A stretch of DNA of 23,180 nucleotides from the IMG/VR virus record IMGVR_UViG_3300017764_000118, positions 1 through 23,180 of that record, one strand, 5' to 3'. The notes below the pieces were generated by a model. That model worked only from the letters and a program-made list of their open reading frames with translations, was not told the origin of the DNA and ran no database searches. Position numbers and translations under genes: made by a program. The stretch is from a virus. Positions 1,017-23,180 of the stretch are shown here, piece by piece (positions within the stretch are counted from its first letter, which is position 1; every line of letters starts with the position of its first letter).

Positions 1017-1667
1017 TTAAAATAGTTCTGTTTGATTAATATTTTCTTTTTTTTGTATACCTAGCATTGTTTCAAATATTGTTTTACCAGCTTCATAGTC
1101 TACTAGGTTTCTTGCAACCTTATTCATTCTTTGTTTTCCTTTGTATTGTCTAAAATCGTAATCGTGATATTTTGACAGTTCATTAATTAAGTCTTTTGTT
1201 CTACTTAAATCAGGATTTTTTCTTCCTTTTAAATCATTAGGCAAATTAAAGTTTGTCCAATATAAATGTCTATCTCTTTTTTTTGCAGGTATTAAAGGTT
1301 CATAATAAGGTATTACATTTTCTATTACATATTTTCCTTTATAATAATATTTTAAAAATATAACTTCTTCATAAAGCATCATACTAGGGTATCTAGGTTT
1401 CCAATTCTCTCTAGTGTATTGGCTTATATTAATTCTACTATGACTAGGGCAAGGAGGAGAACTCCATATAAAGTCAAACTCTTTATAATGGTCTAATAAA
1501 TATTTATGAGCATCTGCTATTACAACTTTGTCATTAGGGAATCTTTCTTGATATAATCTTGCTAACTCAGGGTCTAACTCTACTGCTGTTACTTCTATAT
1601 CTTCTTTTACCTCATTCCATTTGTATCTATTACCTCCTAAACAAGCGTATAAATTTAATATCTTCAT
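1017..1667 (-). CDS. Compact C5-cytosine DNA methyltransferase
   Basis: A 216-residue protein with the ordered motifs of C5-cytosine methyltransferases, which transfer a methyl group from S-adenosylmethionine to cytosine. Motif I is LNLYACLGGNRYKW (residues 4-17). The acidic motif II residue is E30, motif III lies near AD 51-52, and motif IV is SSPPCPS with the catalytic C73. Motif VI is IENV (115-118), and motif VIII is RDRHLYW (131-137). The target-recognition region is very small, since the protein is far shorter than typical bacterial Dcm enzymes (usually above 300 residues). It overlaps the upstream gene by four bases (ATGA). No partner restriction enzyme is visible, so it probably protects phage DNA or modifies it for regulation. 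Family is confident; target sequence is unknown. Confidence 0.85.
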   Translation of the reverse strand: MKILNLYACLGGNRYKWNEVKEDIEVTAVELDPELARLYQERFPNDKVVIADAHKYLLDHYKEFDFIWSSPPCPSHSRINISQYTRENWKPRYPSMMLYEEVIFLKYYYKGKYVIENVIPYYEPLIPAKKRDRHLYWTNFNLPNDLKGRKNPDLSRTKDLINELSKYHDYDFRQYKGKQRMNKVARNLVDYEAGKTIFETMLGIQKKENINQTELF

Positions 1668-6754: not shown

Positions 6755-8800
6755 TTATCTAGGTTTTAAAAATCCGTTATTCTTCATTGTCTTAGGTGCT
6801 TTTGCTACTAAGCCACTATTTCTTTCTAAAGTAAATCCTTCGCTTATTGCTTTAGCATCTGATATAATTTGTTTATTATTAATATCAGCTTTAGCATTCC
6901 TTAAAGATGTTTTATAAACCTGCCTTTTCCAATAATGGTGGCAATTACCTCCACCCTTATAAAGCCAAATACTATATGTAGCATTATTACCTTTTGGACC
7001 CCAACCTTTATTTACAGGTTTATCTGTTAATTGTAAGATATCTTCTTTACGGTAAACTTTTTTAACTGTCATCATTAAACTACAAAAATCTCTAGTTTCC
7101 CCTTCTTGACTTAAAGCAGTATCTTTAGTATAAACATATCTTACCTTGTAATAGTCATTATAAGAATCATTCACTCCGTCCTGAGTACTCCTCGCATTAG
7201 GTCTAGCTGTTCCTGTTGAAGCTAACTCTAATTTACCCTCTACTAATTTATTTAATTCTGCTTCAAAATTGAAGTCTTCGTGTTCACCATCTGAATTTTC
7301 TTCATCTAATAACTCCCAATCTTCAGGAATGTCTTCTCCAAATTCATTAATAAAGCTATTTAATTCTGTAAAATTATCATCACTAAGTTTACAATTACAA
7401 TCTTTTTTTAGACTTGTGATTTGCTCGTGATTCTCACAAGGCATATAGTAATTCTTGCCATCTTGCTTGTGTTCGTGATGCCCTTTACATCCAATTTTTT
7501 CAGCTTCTGCTTCTGCTTCTTCTTTTGTTTCAAATAAAGGTAATTCTACTCCATCTGTAATCATTGTTCCTACCTTTGCAAAGTCTTCTCTTACTTCTAT
7601 ATCTAAAGGTTCAAGTCCAAGCTCTGCACGTATCTCTGCTTGTGTCATAACTGCTTTTAAATCTTCGCTTGTAAATTCTAAAGTGATAGGTTTAAGCTGA
7701 ACAAAGTTCACAGGCATATCCATATCATTTACTTTAAATATCTTTCTTAGTTCTTTTACAATATGATCTTGATAAGGCTTTACAACCGTATTTAAGTAAA
7801 AGTTTGCGGCTGCGTTAAGTTCGTCAACATTAGATCCAAGTCCTGTATCGTTTTTAATACCCATCAGCATTGGTGATGTAACTCGGTGTCCTGTCAATAT
7901 ATTTTGAGTCAGTAATTCTTGTAAAGCTAAGTATTGTTTGTCAGCATCACTCATACTAATCGGCACAATCTCAGGAGTTCTATTTCTATCGTCTGAGAAG
8001 GTAAGTACGAATCTACCTGCTGCTTTTTCTCCTGTAAATTTCTGTGCAAGACTTTGTTCTATTTGATATCTTTCTTCTGCTGTTGGTACACCGTTAGCAA
8101 AAGAAATAAAGTAGCTCCCTGCAAATCCATTTGATATATTAGACAAATGATATTCCGCTACCTTTTGATCAACAAGTGCCCAGTTATTTGCGGCCGTATA
8201 ATCTGGTGTGTGATATACGTTCATATTAGGACTGTAAAGTCCTGAGTATAGTATCTGATTAGCTGAAGTTCTATCTTTAGTGTTAAAAGCAGGCACTCTG
8301 TAAGGCTTGTTAGTTCTTGTGTTTGCCCAGTCAGCTGAAATGTAATAAGCCTCAACTCTGCCCATTTGATTAGGCCTTTCAGCTCTTACTTTCTCCACCC
8401 CTACGTGATATATTTCACTTATTTGTGTCCTGTCCTTTGACCACACTATATTAAGAGCAAACGCTCCTTGTAGCTTAAAGTCAAAAGCAACTTTTTTAAG
8501 GACTTCGTGCAGACTCTCATTAGAGTTAGCTCTGTCCATAAAATTCTGAAGCTTAACTCTAGCCTCTAAATTTCTGTCATCTTCGTTTTCTATTATAAGA
8601 TTTTCAGCGGCTACCATTTCTGCTGTTGCGTTAATAATAGCAGCCTGTGTACTTGAGTTGTAATATAAATCAATTAAAAATTGAGGGTATAGGTTTGCCC
8701 AGTTTTCAGTTCCATACTCTACATAATCTCTACCTCTTACTTCTTTTACATAAGGAGCTGTTTCAGTTTCTAAGTTGATATTTAAAATTTTATCTTTCAT
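6755..8800 (-). CDS. Portal protein with Cys/His-rich C-terminal extension
   Basis: A 681-residue protein. Residues 1 to about 405 look like a phage portal, the dodecameric ring through which DNA enters the capsid. Evidence is LYYNSSTQAAIINATAEMVA near 45-64, KFTGEKAAGRFVLTF near 254-268, and the block ILTGHRVTSPMLMGIKNDTG (301-320) with LGSNVDEL. After the core comes a Cys/His cluster (C438, H441, H442, H444, C455, H458, C468, C470) suggestive of metal binding. An acidic linker (480-520) follows. The C-terminal domain (about 546-630) has TRDFC (569-573), KVYRKEDI and YKGGGNCHHYW (614-624). That last pattern recalls MuF/SPP1 gp7-type minor head proteins, so this may be a portal fused to a minor-head domain. 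The portal part is confident; the extension is inferred. Confidence 0.85.
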   Translation of the reverse strand: MKDKILNINLETETAPYVKEVRGRDYVEYGTENWANLYPQFLIDLYYNSSTQAAIINATAEMVAAENLIIENEDDRNLEARVKLQNFMDRANSNESLHEVLKKVAFDFKLQGAFALNIVWSKDRTQISEIYHVGVEKVRAERPNQMGRVEAYYISADWANTRTNKPYRVPAFNTKDRTSANQILYSGLYSPNMNVYHTPDYTAANNWALVDQKVAEYHLSNISNGFAGSYFISFANGVPTAEERYQIEQSLAQKFTGEKAAGRFVLTFSDDRNRTPEIVPISMSDADKQYLALQELLTQNILTGHRVTSPMLMGIKNDTGLGSNVDELNAAANFYLNTVVKPYQDHIVKELRKIFKVNDMDMPVNFVQLKPITLEFTSEDLKAVMTQAEIRAELGLEPLDIEVREDFAKVGTMITDGVELPLFETKEEAEAEAEKIGCKGHHEHKQDGKNYYMPCENHEQITSLKKDCNCKLSDDNFTELNSFINEFGEDIPEDWELLDEENSDGEHEDFNFEAELNKLVEGKLELASTGTARPNARSTQDGVNDSYNDYYKVRYVYTKDTALSQEGETRDFCSLMMTVKKVYRKEDILQLTDKPVNKGWGPKGNNATYSIWLYKGGGNCHHYWKRQVYKTSLRNAKADINNKQIISDAKAISEGFTLERNSGLVAKAPKTMKNNGFLKPR

Positions 8801-12683: not shown

Positions 12684-14285
12684 TTAAATTGTAGCTCTTC
12701 TTCTAATATTAGCTAATTGATTCTGACTATTACTCATTTCATCAGTTACTACAAAAGCTTTTACTGGATCTGGATCATCTCCTCCTGCTAAATTAAACTC
12801 TCCTGACATCATTTGAGGTGCAGGCATTTGTGAAGCTGAACCTCGAGGACCTCCTCCTCCGCCGCCTCCTTTACCACCACTTTTGATAGCTTGTACATTT
12901 TTAAGTCCAGCAGCAACTGCCGCAGCCGCCGCTATTCCACCCAAAGCAGGTCCTACAACAGGTATTCCGGCCATAGACTTATAAGCAGAGTTTGCTGAAG
13001 CAAAAGTATCGATTGTAGCCTGTGTAATTGCAAAAGCTTTACCTGCTTTTGATTCTTCACCAAATATAGTCGCTAAATTTCCTGCCGTACTCGAAGCAGT
13101 TTTTAGTCTTTGTTTACTTGACATCTCAGACCAAGAGTCTTCTCTTTTACTTAAAGCTCTCCTGTCTCTGTCATATTTTTCGTCTAGTTCTTTTTTTATG
13201 TCTAAGAAGTTTTCGTAATCTGCAATCTCTTTTAGCTGAGCTTCATATTCAAGCCTTAATCGTTCTTCTGCTCTTCTTTGTATATCATCTATTTCAGCTA
13301 AGAAATTCTCTTCTCTTAATTCTTTAAGTTTTTCAGCTTCTCCTGCTAATTGTTCCTCTCTTTCTTCTTTAGCTAATTTCTCCTCTTCTGCAATTTTCGC
13401 TAACCTTTCAGCTTCTTCTTTCGCTTCGTCTTCTTTCTCTTTTGCTCTAGCTTTTTCTGCTGCTCGGATTTCGTTCTCTAAAGCATTAACCTCAGTAACT
13501 ACTCTTCTTCTCATTTTAATAGAAGCTGTTTCTTTCTCAATGATTTCTGTTTTTAATTGAGCAAGTCTTTCTTCATCAGCAGCAGAATTTTCACTTACAG
13601 CCATCTCTTCTAATTGAATTTGCATTCTTTCTCTAGCTAACTCTAACTCTCTCTCGGTAGTTTGTGCTTCTAGTTCTAGTGCTTTTTTGATATTATCAAG
13701 TCTTTCTTCTGCTGACTTTGTTTCATCTTCTGCAATTAATCTAGCTTTTTCTATCTCTTTTCTAGTTGCAGCTTTTTGAACCATAAACTCGTTGTCTGCA
13801 TCTCTTAATGATTGAGTCCTTTTCTCTAAAGCAGTCATAGCCTTAACATCGGCTGCAATCTCTGTACCTATATTTTTAAAAGCATCTGCCATCATCTTAG
13901 CTCCCTTCTTCATAGTCATAGGATTAAACATCATAGACAATCCTTCTCCAAACATTGACACTCTATCTATTAACACATCAAAACCTGCTGATAATCCTGC
14001 CATTCCTTGACTCAGTTTATCTGCTCCTCTTTTTGTACTCGTAAAATAAGTTAGTAAAGATGCTATTGCTATCACTAAAGCACCAATCCCTGTACTAGTC
14101 ATTCCTGCTTTTATAGTAGCAAATGACGCTTTTGCTGAAGCTCCTACTGCTTTAAAGCCTGCCTTCACTCCATTTAAAGATACACCTAGTATTTTAAATT
14201 CTCCTGCTAACTCACTCGCATCTTTTGTAGTTTCTCCTATATTTGACTTTACATTAACCGTTACCGTTTCCGTTTTTCCTGCCAT
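12684..14285 (-). CDS. Tape measure protein
   Basis: A 533-residue protein with the tape-measure layout. The basic/Ala-rich N-terminus leads to a hydrophobic segment STGIGALVIAIASLLTYFTS (64-83). A very long charged coiled coil follows (about 155-385, rich in Glu, Lys, Arg and Ala). Then come TIFGEESKAGKAFAITQATI (407-426), a hydrophobic Gly/Ala stretch IPVVGPALGGIAAAAAVAAG (441-460), a poly-Gly linker and the end VKAFVVTDEMSNSQNQLANI. The last two blocks are characteristic of tape measures in Bacteroidetes phages. It sets tail length; at about 1.5 angstrom per residue this is a fairly short tail, near 80 nm. It lies immediately before the protease gene, an unusual position. Confidence 0.88.
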   Translation of the reverse strand: MAGKTETVTVNVKSNIGETTKDASELAGEFKILGVSLNGVKAGFKAVGASAKASFATIKAGMTSTGIGALVIAIASLLTYFTSTKRGADKLSQGMAGLSAGFDVLIDRVSMFGEGLSMMFNPMTMKKGAKMMADAFKNIGTEIAADVKAMTALEKRTQSLRDADNEFMVQKAATRKEIEKARLIAEDETKSAEERLDNIKKALELEAQTTERELELARERMQIQLEEMAVSENSAADEERLAQLKTEIIEKETASIKMRRRVVTEVNALENEIRAAEKARAKEKEDEAKEEAERLAKIAEEEKLAKEEREEQLAGEAEKLKELREENFLAEIDDIQRRAEERLRLEYEAQLKEIADYENFLDIKKELDEKYDRDRRALSKREDSWSEMSSKQRLKTASSTAGNLATIFGEESKAGKAFAITQATIDTFASANSAYKSMAGIPVVGPALGGIAAAAAVAAGLKNVQAIKSGGKGGGGGGGPRGSASQMPAPQMMSGEFNLAGGDDPDPVKAFVVTDEMSNSQNQLANIRRRATI

Positions 14286-20869: not shown

Positions 20870-20955
20870 ATTTTAATACTTATTGTTGGTGGTATTATTT
20901 GTATTTCTATTTTACCTATTTTTATTTTGTTTAATTTCTTTAAATATTCAATCAT
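20866..20955 (-). CDS. 29-residue coupled small ORF
   Basis: ATG 20955 overlaps the stop of the neck-type gene (TAATG), and its TGA at 20868-20866 overlaps the ATG of the next gene (ATGA). The peptide begins MIEYLKKLNKIKIGKIEIQI and then reads IPPTISIKI. It is basic and beta-prone, and fills the gap between two structural genes exactly. Such double coupling is hard to explain by chance. The function is unknown; it could be a small virion component or serve only to keep ribosomes moving along the message. Confidence 0.6.
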   Translation of the reverse strand: MIEYLKKLNKIKIGKIEIQIIPPTISIKI

Positions 20956-21545
20956 TAGAATCCTGAGCCTCTTGTTTGTGGATTAGGAACGCCACAAGCA
21001 TTGAAGTCGTTTTGCACTAATACTCCAATATTAAATACCCAACCTACGCAAAGATTATCGAAACGCTCTTGGAATGGCTCTAAATTATATTGTCCTTCAG
21101 TAAAGTATATTGGAAAATTTATATCATTCGTTCCATAAGGTACGCCATCATTTGAATACATTGACTGATCTCTTGAGTGCCGAAGCATACTAATAAAATC
21201 TGTTGCTATTTGTAACATCTCACTATAAACACTTTGCTCATCTGTTAAAGGTTTGTATAACTTATCAAAGCTAGTTGCTGCATTCCTTCCTGCTGATTCT
21301 CTATTTTCTGTCCAGTCACTTTCTTGTCCTGTCATTGACATAACAAAGATTTGAAAATTATAAGTTAATGTAGAATCTCCTGTTGTTACTGATGTTGGAT
21401 TTATATGTAATAAAGGAAATTTAGTATTCTTTTCTAAATCGAGTTCCCAAATATCTCCAACTGAAGTAGTATGGATTCCGTAATGTTTCTCTGCCATTAA
21501 AAGCAAAGTATTTATTACGTTATTATATGTCTTATTGTTTACCAT
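20955..21545 (-). CDS. Neck / tail-terminator-like protein
   Basis: A 196-residue protein starting MVNNKTYNNVINTLLLMAEK. It contains HTTSVGDIWELDLEKNTKFP (about 25-44) followed by LLHINPTSVTTGDSTLTYNF, then YSEMLQIATDFISMLRHS, and ends QERFDNLCVGWVFNIGVLVQ followed by a Cys-Pro tail. The order (early helix, beta strands around GDIW and YNF, helix with a D-x-I/L-x-x-L, then a final W-x-F-x-I strand) fits tail-terminator or minor-tail proteins. Proteins with this outline recur in Bacteroidetes phages. Its ATG lies 14 bases inside the end of the frameshifted chaperone frame. Confidence 0.6.
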   Translation of the reverse strand: MVNNKTYNNVINTLLLMAEKHYGIHTTSVGDIWELDLEKNTKFPLLHINPTSVTTGDSTLTYNFQIFVMSMTGQESDWTENRESAGRNAATSFDKLYKPLTDEQSVYSEMLQIATDFISMLRHSRDQSMYSNDGVPYGTNDINFPIYFTEGQYNLEPFQERFDNLCVGWVFNIGVLVQNDFNACGVPNPQTRGSGF

Positions 21546-22310
21546 TTGATTGTACTTTATTTTGTGAGTTCAAATCTGTTTCATAACTTAACCAGGTTAA
21601 ACATTCTAATAAACTCAAATTTGTTATACTTTCTAACTTACTTAACTCTTGATTACAAAGCCTGTGCATTACACCAAACCAACCCCACTTTTCTGCGAAG
21701 CTTTCTGATGCAACTGCGTTTTCGTTTCCTTCATCTGTTGTGTCAAACACAATGGCAAACTCTTCAACAATACGTTGACGAAACTCCAAAAAAAAACCAG
21801 AGATGCTTGAACTTGTTCGGCAGGCATCTTCTTCATTACTTCTGATCTTATCTTAATTTTACCGTCATAGGCTTCTATTGTATATACTTTATTCTTTTTC
21901 TCAACAACAGGTCTAAATAAAATAGCCATTAATTCTGGTAAATGTTTATCAATTCCTAGTTTGACAAAAGTCTCAATATCGGCATACTCACCCAAAGTTA
22001 TCTCGTCTAGATCAGGATGGAATCCGTATTCAACTCCTTCTACTTCTATAATCTTTTTTAGCTCAGTATTTTCTTCACTTTGTATTCTTGATATTTCTCC
22101 CATAATAATAGCAATATCTTTTATACTCAAAACATTAATTAATTTTTTAGGTATATTAGATAACTCAGCTATTGTATTTAAAGCTTCTTTGCTTTTTCCT
22201 TCTTTATTAAAATCTATCAATCTTAACCAACTCTCTAAAGTAACGTCTGACCAACTCTCTATTACTTTGTAAGTTTTAGTTTTTTTGTCTTTGTTTATTT
22301 TGACCTTCAT
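21532..22310 (-). CDS. Tail assembly chaperone, -1 frameshift fusion product
   Basis: If ribosomes slip back one base at the T9 run (21796-21788), the first 174 residues continue as LEFRQRIVEEFAIVFDTTDE and run to a stop at 21534-21532, giving about 259 residues. The added part contains SFAEKWGWFGVMHRLCNQEL (WGW-x-x-x...LCN) and LLECLTWLSYE, a segment that closely resembles the C-terminal part of phage chaperone-type proteins. Phage tail chaperones (gpG/gpGT of lambda) are made this way to help load the tape measure. The fusion end overlaps the next gene by 14 bases, whereas the unshifted product leaves a gap of about 120 bases. A sequencing deletion in a longer T-run would give the same picture. 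Confidence 0.6.
21669..22310 (-). CDS. Tail assembly chaperone, unshifted product
   Basis: Reading straight through gives 213 residues from ATG 22310. Recognisable parts are YKVIESWSDVTLESWLRLID (14-33), LSNIPKKLINVLSIKDIAII (50-69), VEYGFHPDLDEITLGEYADI, ETFVKLGIDKHLPELMAILF and MKKMPAEQVQASLVFF (to residue 174). This outline belongs to a protein I associate with tail assembly chaperones of Bacteroidetes phages. After residue 174 the unshifted frame adds 39 residues, beginning WSFVNVLLKSLPLCLTQQ, which look less protein-like than the alternative frame. If real, the short form would be the more abundant product. The gene follows the terL hairpin and carries the leader TACATTATATATTATG at its start. 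It is about 7.4 kb ahead of the tape-measure gene, unlike the usual adjacent placement. Confidence 0.65.
   Translation of the reverse strand: MKVKINKDKKTKTYKVIESWSDVTLESWLRLIDFNKEGKSKEALNTIAELSNIPKKLINVLSIKDIAIIMGEISRIQSEENTELKKIIEVEGVEYGFHPDLDEITLGEYADIETFVKLGIDKHLPELMAILFRPVVEKKNKVYTIEAYDGKIKIRSEVMKKMPAEQVQASLVFFWSFVNVLLKSLPLCLTQQMKETKTQLHQKASQKSGVGLV
21764..21796 (-). promoter_or_regulatory. Candidate -1 ribosomal frameshift signal
   Basis: In the zero frame the codons are GTT TTT TTT TGG, giving the heptamer T-TTT-TTT that fits the slippery form X-XXY-YYZ. Ten bases after it the minus strand can form a 5-pair hairpin TCAAC / GTTGA with the loop GTATT (21778-21764). A second hairpin TTGTG / CACAA follows at 21752-21738. 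The geometry is suitable but the stems are short. The alternative is a one-base homopolymer sequencing error. Confidence 0.55.
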
Positions 22311-22419: not shown

Positions 22420-23180
22420 CTATTGCACAAAATATCTACCTGCATTCGGATTATCTAAGTGATATATGACATTATATCTAACTCCATCTATTGCGTGATT
22501 GTAAGAATCTACGTATAGCTTAGAACCCTTATCTGCGTAAATATAGTTATTTAATTCTTTAGCTATATTAGTAGACTCAGGAGATATAATTAATTCAAAA
22601 TCCTGCATTCTAGTTATACCGCTTTCAATAGTTCCTTTTTTTACAGGCTTTATGTTTACGCCTAAATGCTTTAAATCTGCTATTAGTCTAGGCTCTGCAC
22701 TATCTGCAATTATAAGCATATTATCTACTTTGCTTAATACTATCTTTGCTAACTCGTGAGACTTTAATCCATTCTGATATATATGCTCTTTTAAATATAT
22801 CTTCATTTTCTTTTTATCAATAGCTACTTCTGTTAGTGAGTCAGGATCAACAGAGAATCCAAAGTCCATTCCACAAGAAGTCTGCAATCCATCAGGATTA
22901 AATTCTCCTATACTCCAATTAGTAAATACAACCCCTTCAGCTTTGTCTAGCCATCCTCCTAATATCTTGTGATTATATTTCTTAAAGTTATTATGCTTTA
23001 TAGTATTAATACGCTCTAAGAAGCTCGTAGAGAGATTATCTTTATTGTCTAGGTATGTACTATGTATATAACATACATTGTCTTTAAATCCGTTAAAACC
23101 TGCTTCAACTCCTTTGTCTTCAAAAAACCTTTTGTATATCCAATGCTCCTTAGTAACAGGATTCAGTATAAGTATTATTC
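22420..23180 (-). CDS. terL: Terminase large subunit, C-terminal part
   Basis: The frame is open from the right edge to a TAG at 22422-22420, so only the last 252 residues are visible and the ATPase start is outside the window. The visible part begins ILNPVTKEHWIYKRFFEDKG, the NP-x-x-x-x-H/Y-W-x-x segment after the ATPase domain of Terminase_3-type proteins. The nuclease domain follows: GMDFGFSVDPDSL with its first Asp, ADSAEPRLIADLKHLGVNIK with the second, and YNHAIDGVRY with the third. These RNase-H-fold acids cut the DNA concatemer during packaging. A start at TTG 22887 is an artefact of the open upstream frame. The call is firm; whether packaging is cos or headful cannot be read here. Confidence 0.92.
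   Translation of the reverse strand, partial: IILILNPVTKEHWIYKRFFEDKGVEAGFNGFKDNVCYIHSTYLDNKDNLSTSFLERINTIKHNNFKKYNHKILGGWLDKAEGVVFTNWSIGEFNPDGLQTSCGMDFGFSVDPDSLTEVAIDKKKMKIYLKEHIYQNGLKSHELAKIVLSKVDNMLIIADSAEPRLIADLKHLGVNIKPVKKGTIESGITRMQDFELIISPESTNIAKELNNYIYADKGSKLYVDSYNHAIDGVRYNVIYHLDNPNAGRYFVQ

Follow-up and report, generated by a model that had tools for sequence, protein, structure and literature searches.

A conserved T9 run joins two overlapping reading frames in a probable tail assembly chaperone gene of aquatic phages and favours transcriptional slippage

The recoded gene and its neighbourhood

The DNA analysed, here called the window, is the entire IMG/VR record IMGVR_UViG_3300017764_000118 of 23,180 bases. 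A gene of the tail module near one end of the window carries a long homopolymer at the junction of two open reading frames, with the following features.

22420..23178, minus strand: terminase large subunit, 3' part, upstream neighbour (Terminase_3 and Terminase_3C matches)
21669..22310, minus strand: zero-frame ORF of 213 aa, made of a 174-aa N-terminal domain (ending ...LVFF) and a 39-aa zero-frame tail
21788..21796, minus strand: T9 run, the putative slippage site (codons GTT TTT TTT TGG; T_TTT_TTT in phase with the zero frame)
21764..21778, minus strand: hairpin UCAAC-GUAUU-GUUGA of 5 bp, beginning 9 nt after the T9 run
21532..21789, minus strand: -1 frame ORF after the slip, open for 85 codons (LEFRQRIVEEF...), encoding the C-terminal domain
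21532..21545, minus strand: 14 nt shared by the end of the -1 frame and the beginning of the next gene (ATG at 21545)
20955..21545, minus strand: next tail-module gene, 196 aa, function not assigned, syntenic in relatives
12684..14285, minus strand: tape measure protein (TMP), 533 aa (PHROG tape-measure matches, E 6e-17)

The layout described in the first-pass annotation stands. The run (21796-21788) has the phase of a T_TTT_TTT heptamer in the zero frame, and the -1 frame, said to be open for 85 codons, was found at 21789-21532. The shifted frame does overlap the next gene by 14 nt, while the unshifted stop leaves a gap of 123 nt before it. The gene is also remote from the tape measure as claimed, with TMP lying 7.25 kb downstream of the -1 frame stop in the window. 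TMP, where recognised, follows 4-7 kb downstream in those relatives whose records include enough flanking sequence. The shifted product is predicted at about 259 aa (174-aa N-terminal domain and 85-aa -1 domain). No other A/T run in the 23-kb window reaches nine.

The gene order in the clade is terminase, recoded gene, next small gene, further tail genes, TMP, protease, scaffold and capsid. Two other genes of the window have unusual domain content. The portal protein (6755-8800, minus strand) matches DUF3721 at residues 423-458, a His-rich segment with HHEH located after the portal domain. A 216-aa ORF (1017-1667, minus strand) matches only the N-terminal part of a C-5 cytosine methylase (Pfam positions 1-88 of 324).

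Conservation of the run and of both frames

Comparison with related phages, as suggested in the first-pass annotation, found the T-run and both frames kept in 239 of 239 unique relatives, at identities down to about 25%. This count is a lower bound on the distinct related sequences with the site. The run is T9 in 234 of the 239 and T10 in the other five, with no shorter run and no fused copy. In the protein search of viral contigs, the best 80 of 178 relatives were examined and all contain the T-run followed by an open -1 frame. Other queries were the zero-frame family, the homologue in Nonlabens phage P12024L, the -1 domain and a divergent N-terminal alignment. A search with the N-terminal domain only found T9 in 75 of 75 unique matches and, since that domain ends at the run, was not selected for the -1 domain. 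The complete isolate genomes of Nonlabens phages P12024L and P12024S carry T9 and both frames.

The -1 frame encodes a conserved domain, LxFRxR...KWGW(Y/F)..., in which F3, R4, W35 and L67 are invariant in a diverse alignment. The +1 frame, by comparison, stays open for a median of two codons in the relatives. About 180 of 185 relatives have the ATG of the next gene overlapping the -1 stop or directly adjoining it. Given that the T-run and both frames are conserved throughout the relatives, the shift appears real and selected, and the reading of a lost T fails. On the evidence of this sequence conservation, the T-run and both frames are under selection and the site is no artefact, which supports a programmed shift into the -1 frame in a gene remote from TMP.

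The group consists mainly of aquatic phages and is common in marine and freshwater viromes. P12024L and P12024S are the only cultured relatives found, and their host is a flavobacterium. Their homologues are annotated as separate hypothetical genes, P12024L gp40/gp41 (L082 11980-12674) and P12024S gp38/gp39 (L415 601-1295), and each pair looks like one recoded gene. Contigs from MAGs labelled Euryarchaeota archaeon and Pseudooceanicola (L145, L146, L147) also carry this phage's tail module, which probably reflects mis-binning of phage DNA and not the identity of the host.

Purity and relocation of the run

The last base of the heptamer (Z) is free in principle in X_XXY_YYZ ribosomal frameshifting. 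A T-to-C change at this base would be silent in both frames (Phe to Phe and Leu to Leu) at 200 of 207 unique sites, and none of the 200 has C. Parsimony on a tree of the 207 sequences gave 0 and 0 T/C changes at the two slip Phe codons, against 32 at a near-invariant Phe elsewhere and 21-47 for further two-fold codons; the tree count is anchored on the run itself, and the homologous Phe codon does differ in rare variants. Phe codons in the same gene are TTC in 37% of cases. A scan of the entire IMG/VR collection for FFYxLGN, with a pattern that fixed neither the first Phe codon nor the upstream Ts and did not demand T9, retrieved at least 115 unique matches with Z=T, all exact T9. The same pattern with Z=C retrieved one unrelated chance sequence on 3 contigs. 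For E. coli ribosomes, U_UU.C works slightly better than U_UU.U as a frameshift motif (PMC4066793). This order may not hold for Bacteroidetes ribosomes. With U_UU.C no worse than U_UU.U in E. coli, the ribosome offers no obvious reason against C.

Rare variants move the run. In a CTT TTT TTT TTC TAC variant (L040, L050, L070, L073, L074), the second Phe codon is TTC and the upstream codons became CTT TTT, which gives T10. In an AGG/CGG TTT TTT TTT GTT variant (L047, L054, L075), Val is replaced by Arg and Tyr by Phe, and the run has moved by two bases with nine Ts kept. The run-moving variants probably represent few independent events. All variants retain nine or more Ts without a break, though the residues and the phase differ. 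Coded residues force some of the flanking Ts, which makes the argument from run length weaker than the argument from C substitution.

Runs elsewhere and RNA folding

Other coding sequence of these phages contains 9 runs of at least nine where synonymous resampling predicts 25.4, a depletion computed on phage coding sequence alone. Runs of 6-7 in the same coding sequence are near expectation. Depletion of long runs is a sign marking genomes in which 9A/9T runs slip in transcription (Baranov et al., PMC1088944). The phages show two marks of transcriptional slippage, namely avoidance of such runs elsewhere and, in 239 of 239 homologues, an unbroken A/T stretch of nine or more together with a conserved second frame.

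Folding of single sequences across the site gave no excess over shuffles, with a mean z of about 0 in 40 relatives, and no conserved simple stimulatory fold was seen downstream of the site in the relatives by this approach. The hairpin pointed out in the first-pass annotation is present at 21778-21764, and it starts 9 nt after the run. It is ordinary in the window (z -1.1) and not conserved. We rejected it as a stimulator on the grounds that it is unexceptional and not kept in relatives.

Which step slips

The sequence comparisons favour transcriptional slippage over ribosomal frameshifting at about 70:28, and both may occur. The preference follows from the absence of the silent C, the relocation of the run in variants, the depletion of long runs elsewhere and the lack of a conserved stimulatory fold. 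The first-pass annotation had proposed a programmed -1 ribosomal shift. The shift into the -1 frame was upheld, and the ribosomal step became doubtful in view of the strictly kept T-run, its relocation and the missing conserved stimulator.

A programmed -1 ribosomal shift at T_TTT_TTT of the lambda G/GT kind, with a weak or no stimulator, is unlikely, and of all alternatives it survives best. Every relative, the phase-shifted variants among them, has a perfect X_XXY_YYZ heptamer in the correct phase, and coded residues partly account for the Ts flanking it. Frameshifting at low efficiency without a stimulator is also documented for some tailed phages (PMC5009743). Against a ribosomal site, Z is always T though C would change no residue in either frame and U_UU.C slips no less readily in E. 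coli, the run never falls below nine even where it is relocated, and no downstream fold is conserved. Two usual features of ribosomal sites, a freely varying Z and a conserved stimulator among simple folds, are therefore missing; as both are usual and not obligatory, the ribosomal shift is less likely, its probability being only lowered.

Identity of the recoded gene

The product is likely a tail assembly chaperone, judging from gene position, architecture and a weak fold match. The AlphaFold model of the N-terminal domain in the zero-frame protein has a pLDDT of 83.6, and a fold search with it retrieved numerous phage proteins without a name, as well as two weak matches that carry the label tail assembly chaperone (E 7e-3 and 0.25). 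The model of the -1 domain is poor (pLDDT 55.5). Searches of Pfam, NCBIfam and PDB folds gave no significant match for the recoded gene. A weak Phage_TAC_7 match (E 0.072) is absent from the records of four relatives. PHROG 32199 and PHROG 38404 are the families of the two gene parts, and neither has an assigned function. The chaperone assignment in the first-pass annotation is hence plausible by position, architecture and weak fold match, with no sequence homology to a proven chaperone detected in Pfam, NCBIfam or PHROGs.

One of the weak fold matches, R9VW65 of Flavobacterium phage 6H (L302 10352-10927, minus strand), ends in TGT TTT TTC, and its -1 frame stops at once with a long open stretch after. 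R9VW65 speaks neither for nor against the assignment, as the -1 frame meets an immediate stop.

That the recoded tail-module gene encodes something other than a chaperone, such as a packaging or connector factor beside the terminase, is slightly less likely still than the ribosomal reading. Such a role would fit a gene that adjoins the terminase, lies 4-7 kb from TMP and has no sequence match to known chaperones. The two C-terminal isoforms on one N-terminal domain are a hallmark of chaperones, though, and tail genes come next in the order. The fold matches to labelled chaperones also argue against a different role.

The zero-frame tail

The zero frame continues for 16-87 codons beyond the slip across relatives. 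In the larger clade, its open length exceeds what synonymous shuffles of the -1 frame predict (on average 3% of shuffles reach as far). Openness is not significant against shuffles in the window's own clade (24%). There, -1 wobble sites are equally variable inside and outside the overlap, with no clear amino acid-level selection on the zero-frame tail. A clade of sequences (L151-L301) has zero-frame tails of about 55-87 codons with both frames open over 150-300 nt, possibly a true case of dual coding of alternative C-termini.

Phase variation, in which replication slippage at the run would switch the fusion on in some phages of the population and off in others, is very improbable. A9/T9 runs can be hypermutable (PMC1088944), yet an in-frame fused allele occurs in 0 of 239 unique sequences, and the openness of the zero frame in the larger clade likewise speaks against toggling. 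Homopolymers are prone to sequencing error, and the first-pass annotation had offered a T10 misread as T9, hence a single continuous gene, as its alternative; a sequencing or assembly artefact of this kind has a negligible chance given that run length agrees in 234 of 239 unique sequences, drawn from numerous metagenomes, and in two complete isolate genomes, that the five T10 cases are also two-frame and that a fused copy was found nowhere.

A model for two products from one gene

We propose, with a probability of about 0.6, that a recoded tail-module gene, probably a chaperone gene, yields two products mainly through RNA polymerase slippage. Most mRNAs would keep nine Us and be translated into the shorter, zero-frame product, which has 213 aa in the window. 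In a fraction of the mRNAs, one U would be added at the T9 run (U9 to U10). The U10 mRNA would encode a fusion of about 259 aa, in which the 85-aa -1-frame domain follows the 174-aa N-terminal domain. Ribosomes on the slipped mRNA would stop at the start of the next gene, where translation coupling is possible. We infer the slip by RNA polymerase, the tail chaperone pair, the product ratio and the coupling from the sequences. Extended to a whole clade of tailed phages, the proposal becomes an even bet: a strictly conserved T9 transcriptional slippage site, in place of ribosomal frameshifting, would set the isoform ratio of a tail chaperone whose gene is detached from TMP and has overlapping alternative C-termini.

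Chaperone recoding in tailed phages is treated as a standard example of ribosomal frameshifting beside the TMP gene. The reviews and literature searched, which mostly excluded subscription papers, place such recoding only at the ribosome and yielded no phage chaperone that arises from slippage of RNA polymerase. The two-product logic has apparently been kept through a different expression step and from another genomic position. Annotators can use a T9 run with LxFRxR...KWGW(Y/F) after it to recognise a gene that databases currently split or truncate. P12024L, being cultured, permits a direct test of the mechanism.

Comparison with known systems

Lambda G/GT and HK97 gp13-14 resemble the present gene as single genes of the tail module with a -1 extension and two isoforms sharing an N-terminal domain. 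The lambda-type features present here are two conserved ORFs joined by a -1 shift and an X_XXY_YYZ heptamer in phase. In contrast to these systems, the gene is not directly upstream of TMP (4-7 kb apart in the window and relatives), the zero frame runs 16-87 codons past the slip where theirs ends near it, and the site is an invariant homopolymer, with no detectable sequence homology. As the adjacency to TMP fails, we describe the gene as working like G/GT and not as a member of that group.

Among transcriptional systems, mxiE and Thermus thermophilus dnaX are given as slippage cases (PMC1088944). In Shigella mxiE, one U inserted at a T run joins two overlapping ORFs into a longer protein, as proposed here. 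It differs as a cellular regulator gene with measured slippage, whereas the present case is a phage structural gene with inferred slippage. The A9 of T. thermophilus dnaX shares the exact run of nine and the two products, and differs in being an A-run that leads to a truncated product. IS elements with A9/T9 conserve the run and both frames among homologues in the same way, and they encode transposases. The closest counterparts are the direct homologues in the Nonlabens phages of Inhavirus, P12024L gp40/gp41 and P12024S gp38/gp39, which have the same T9 and both frames; they differ by an identity of about 29% and by a next gene that does not overlap.
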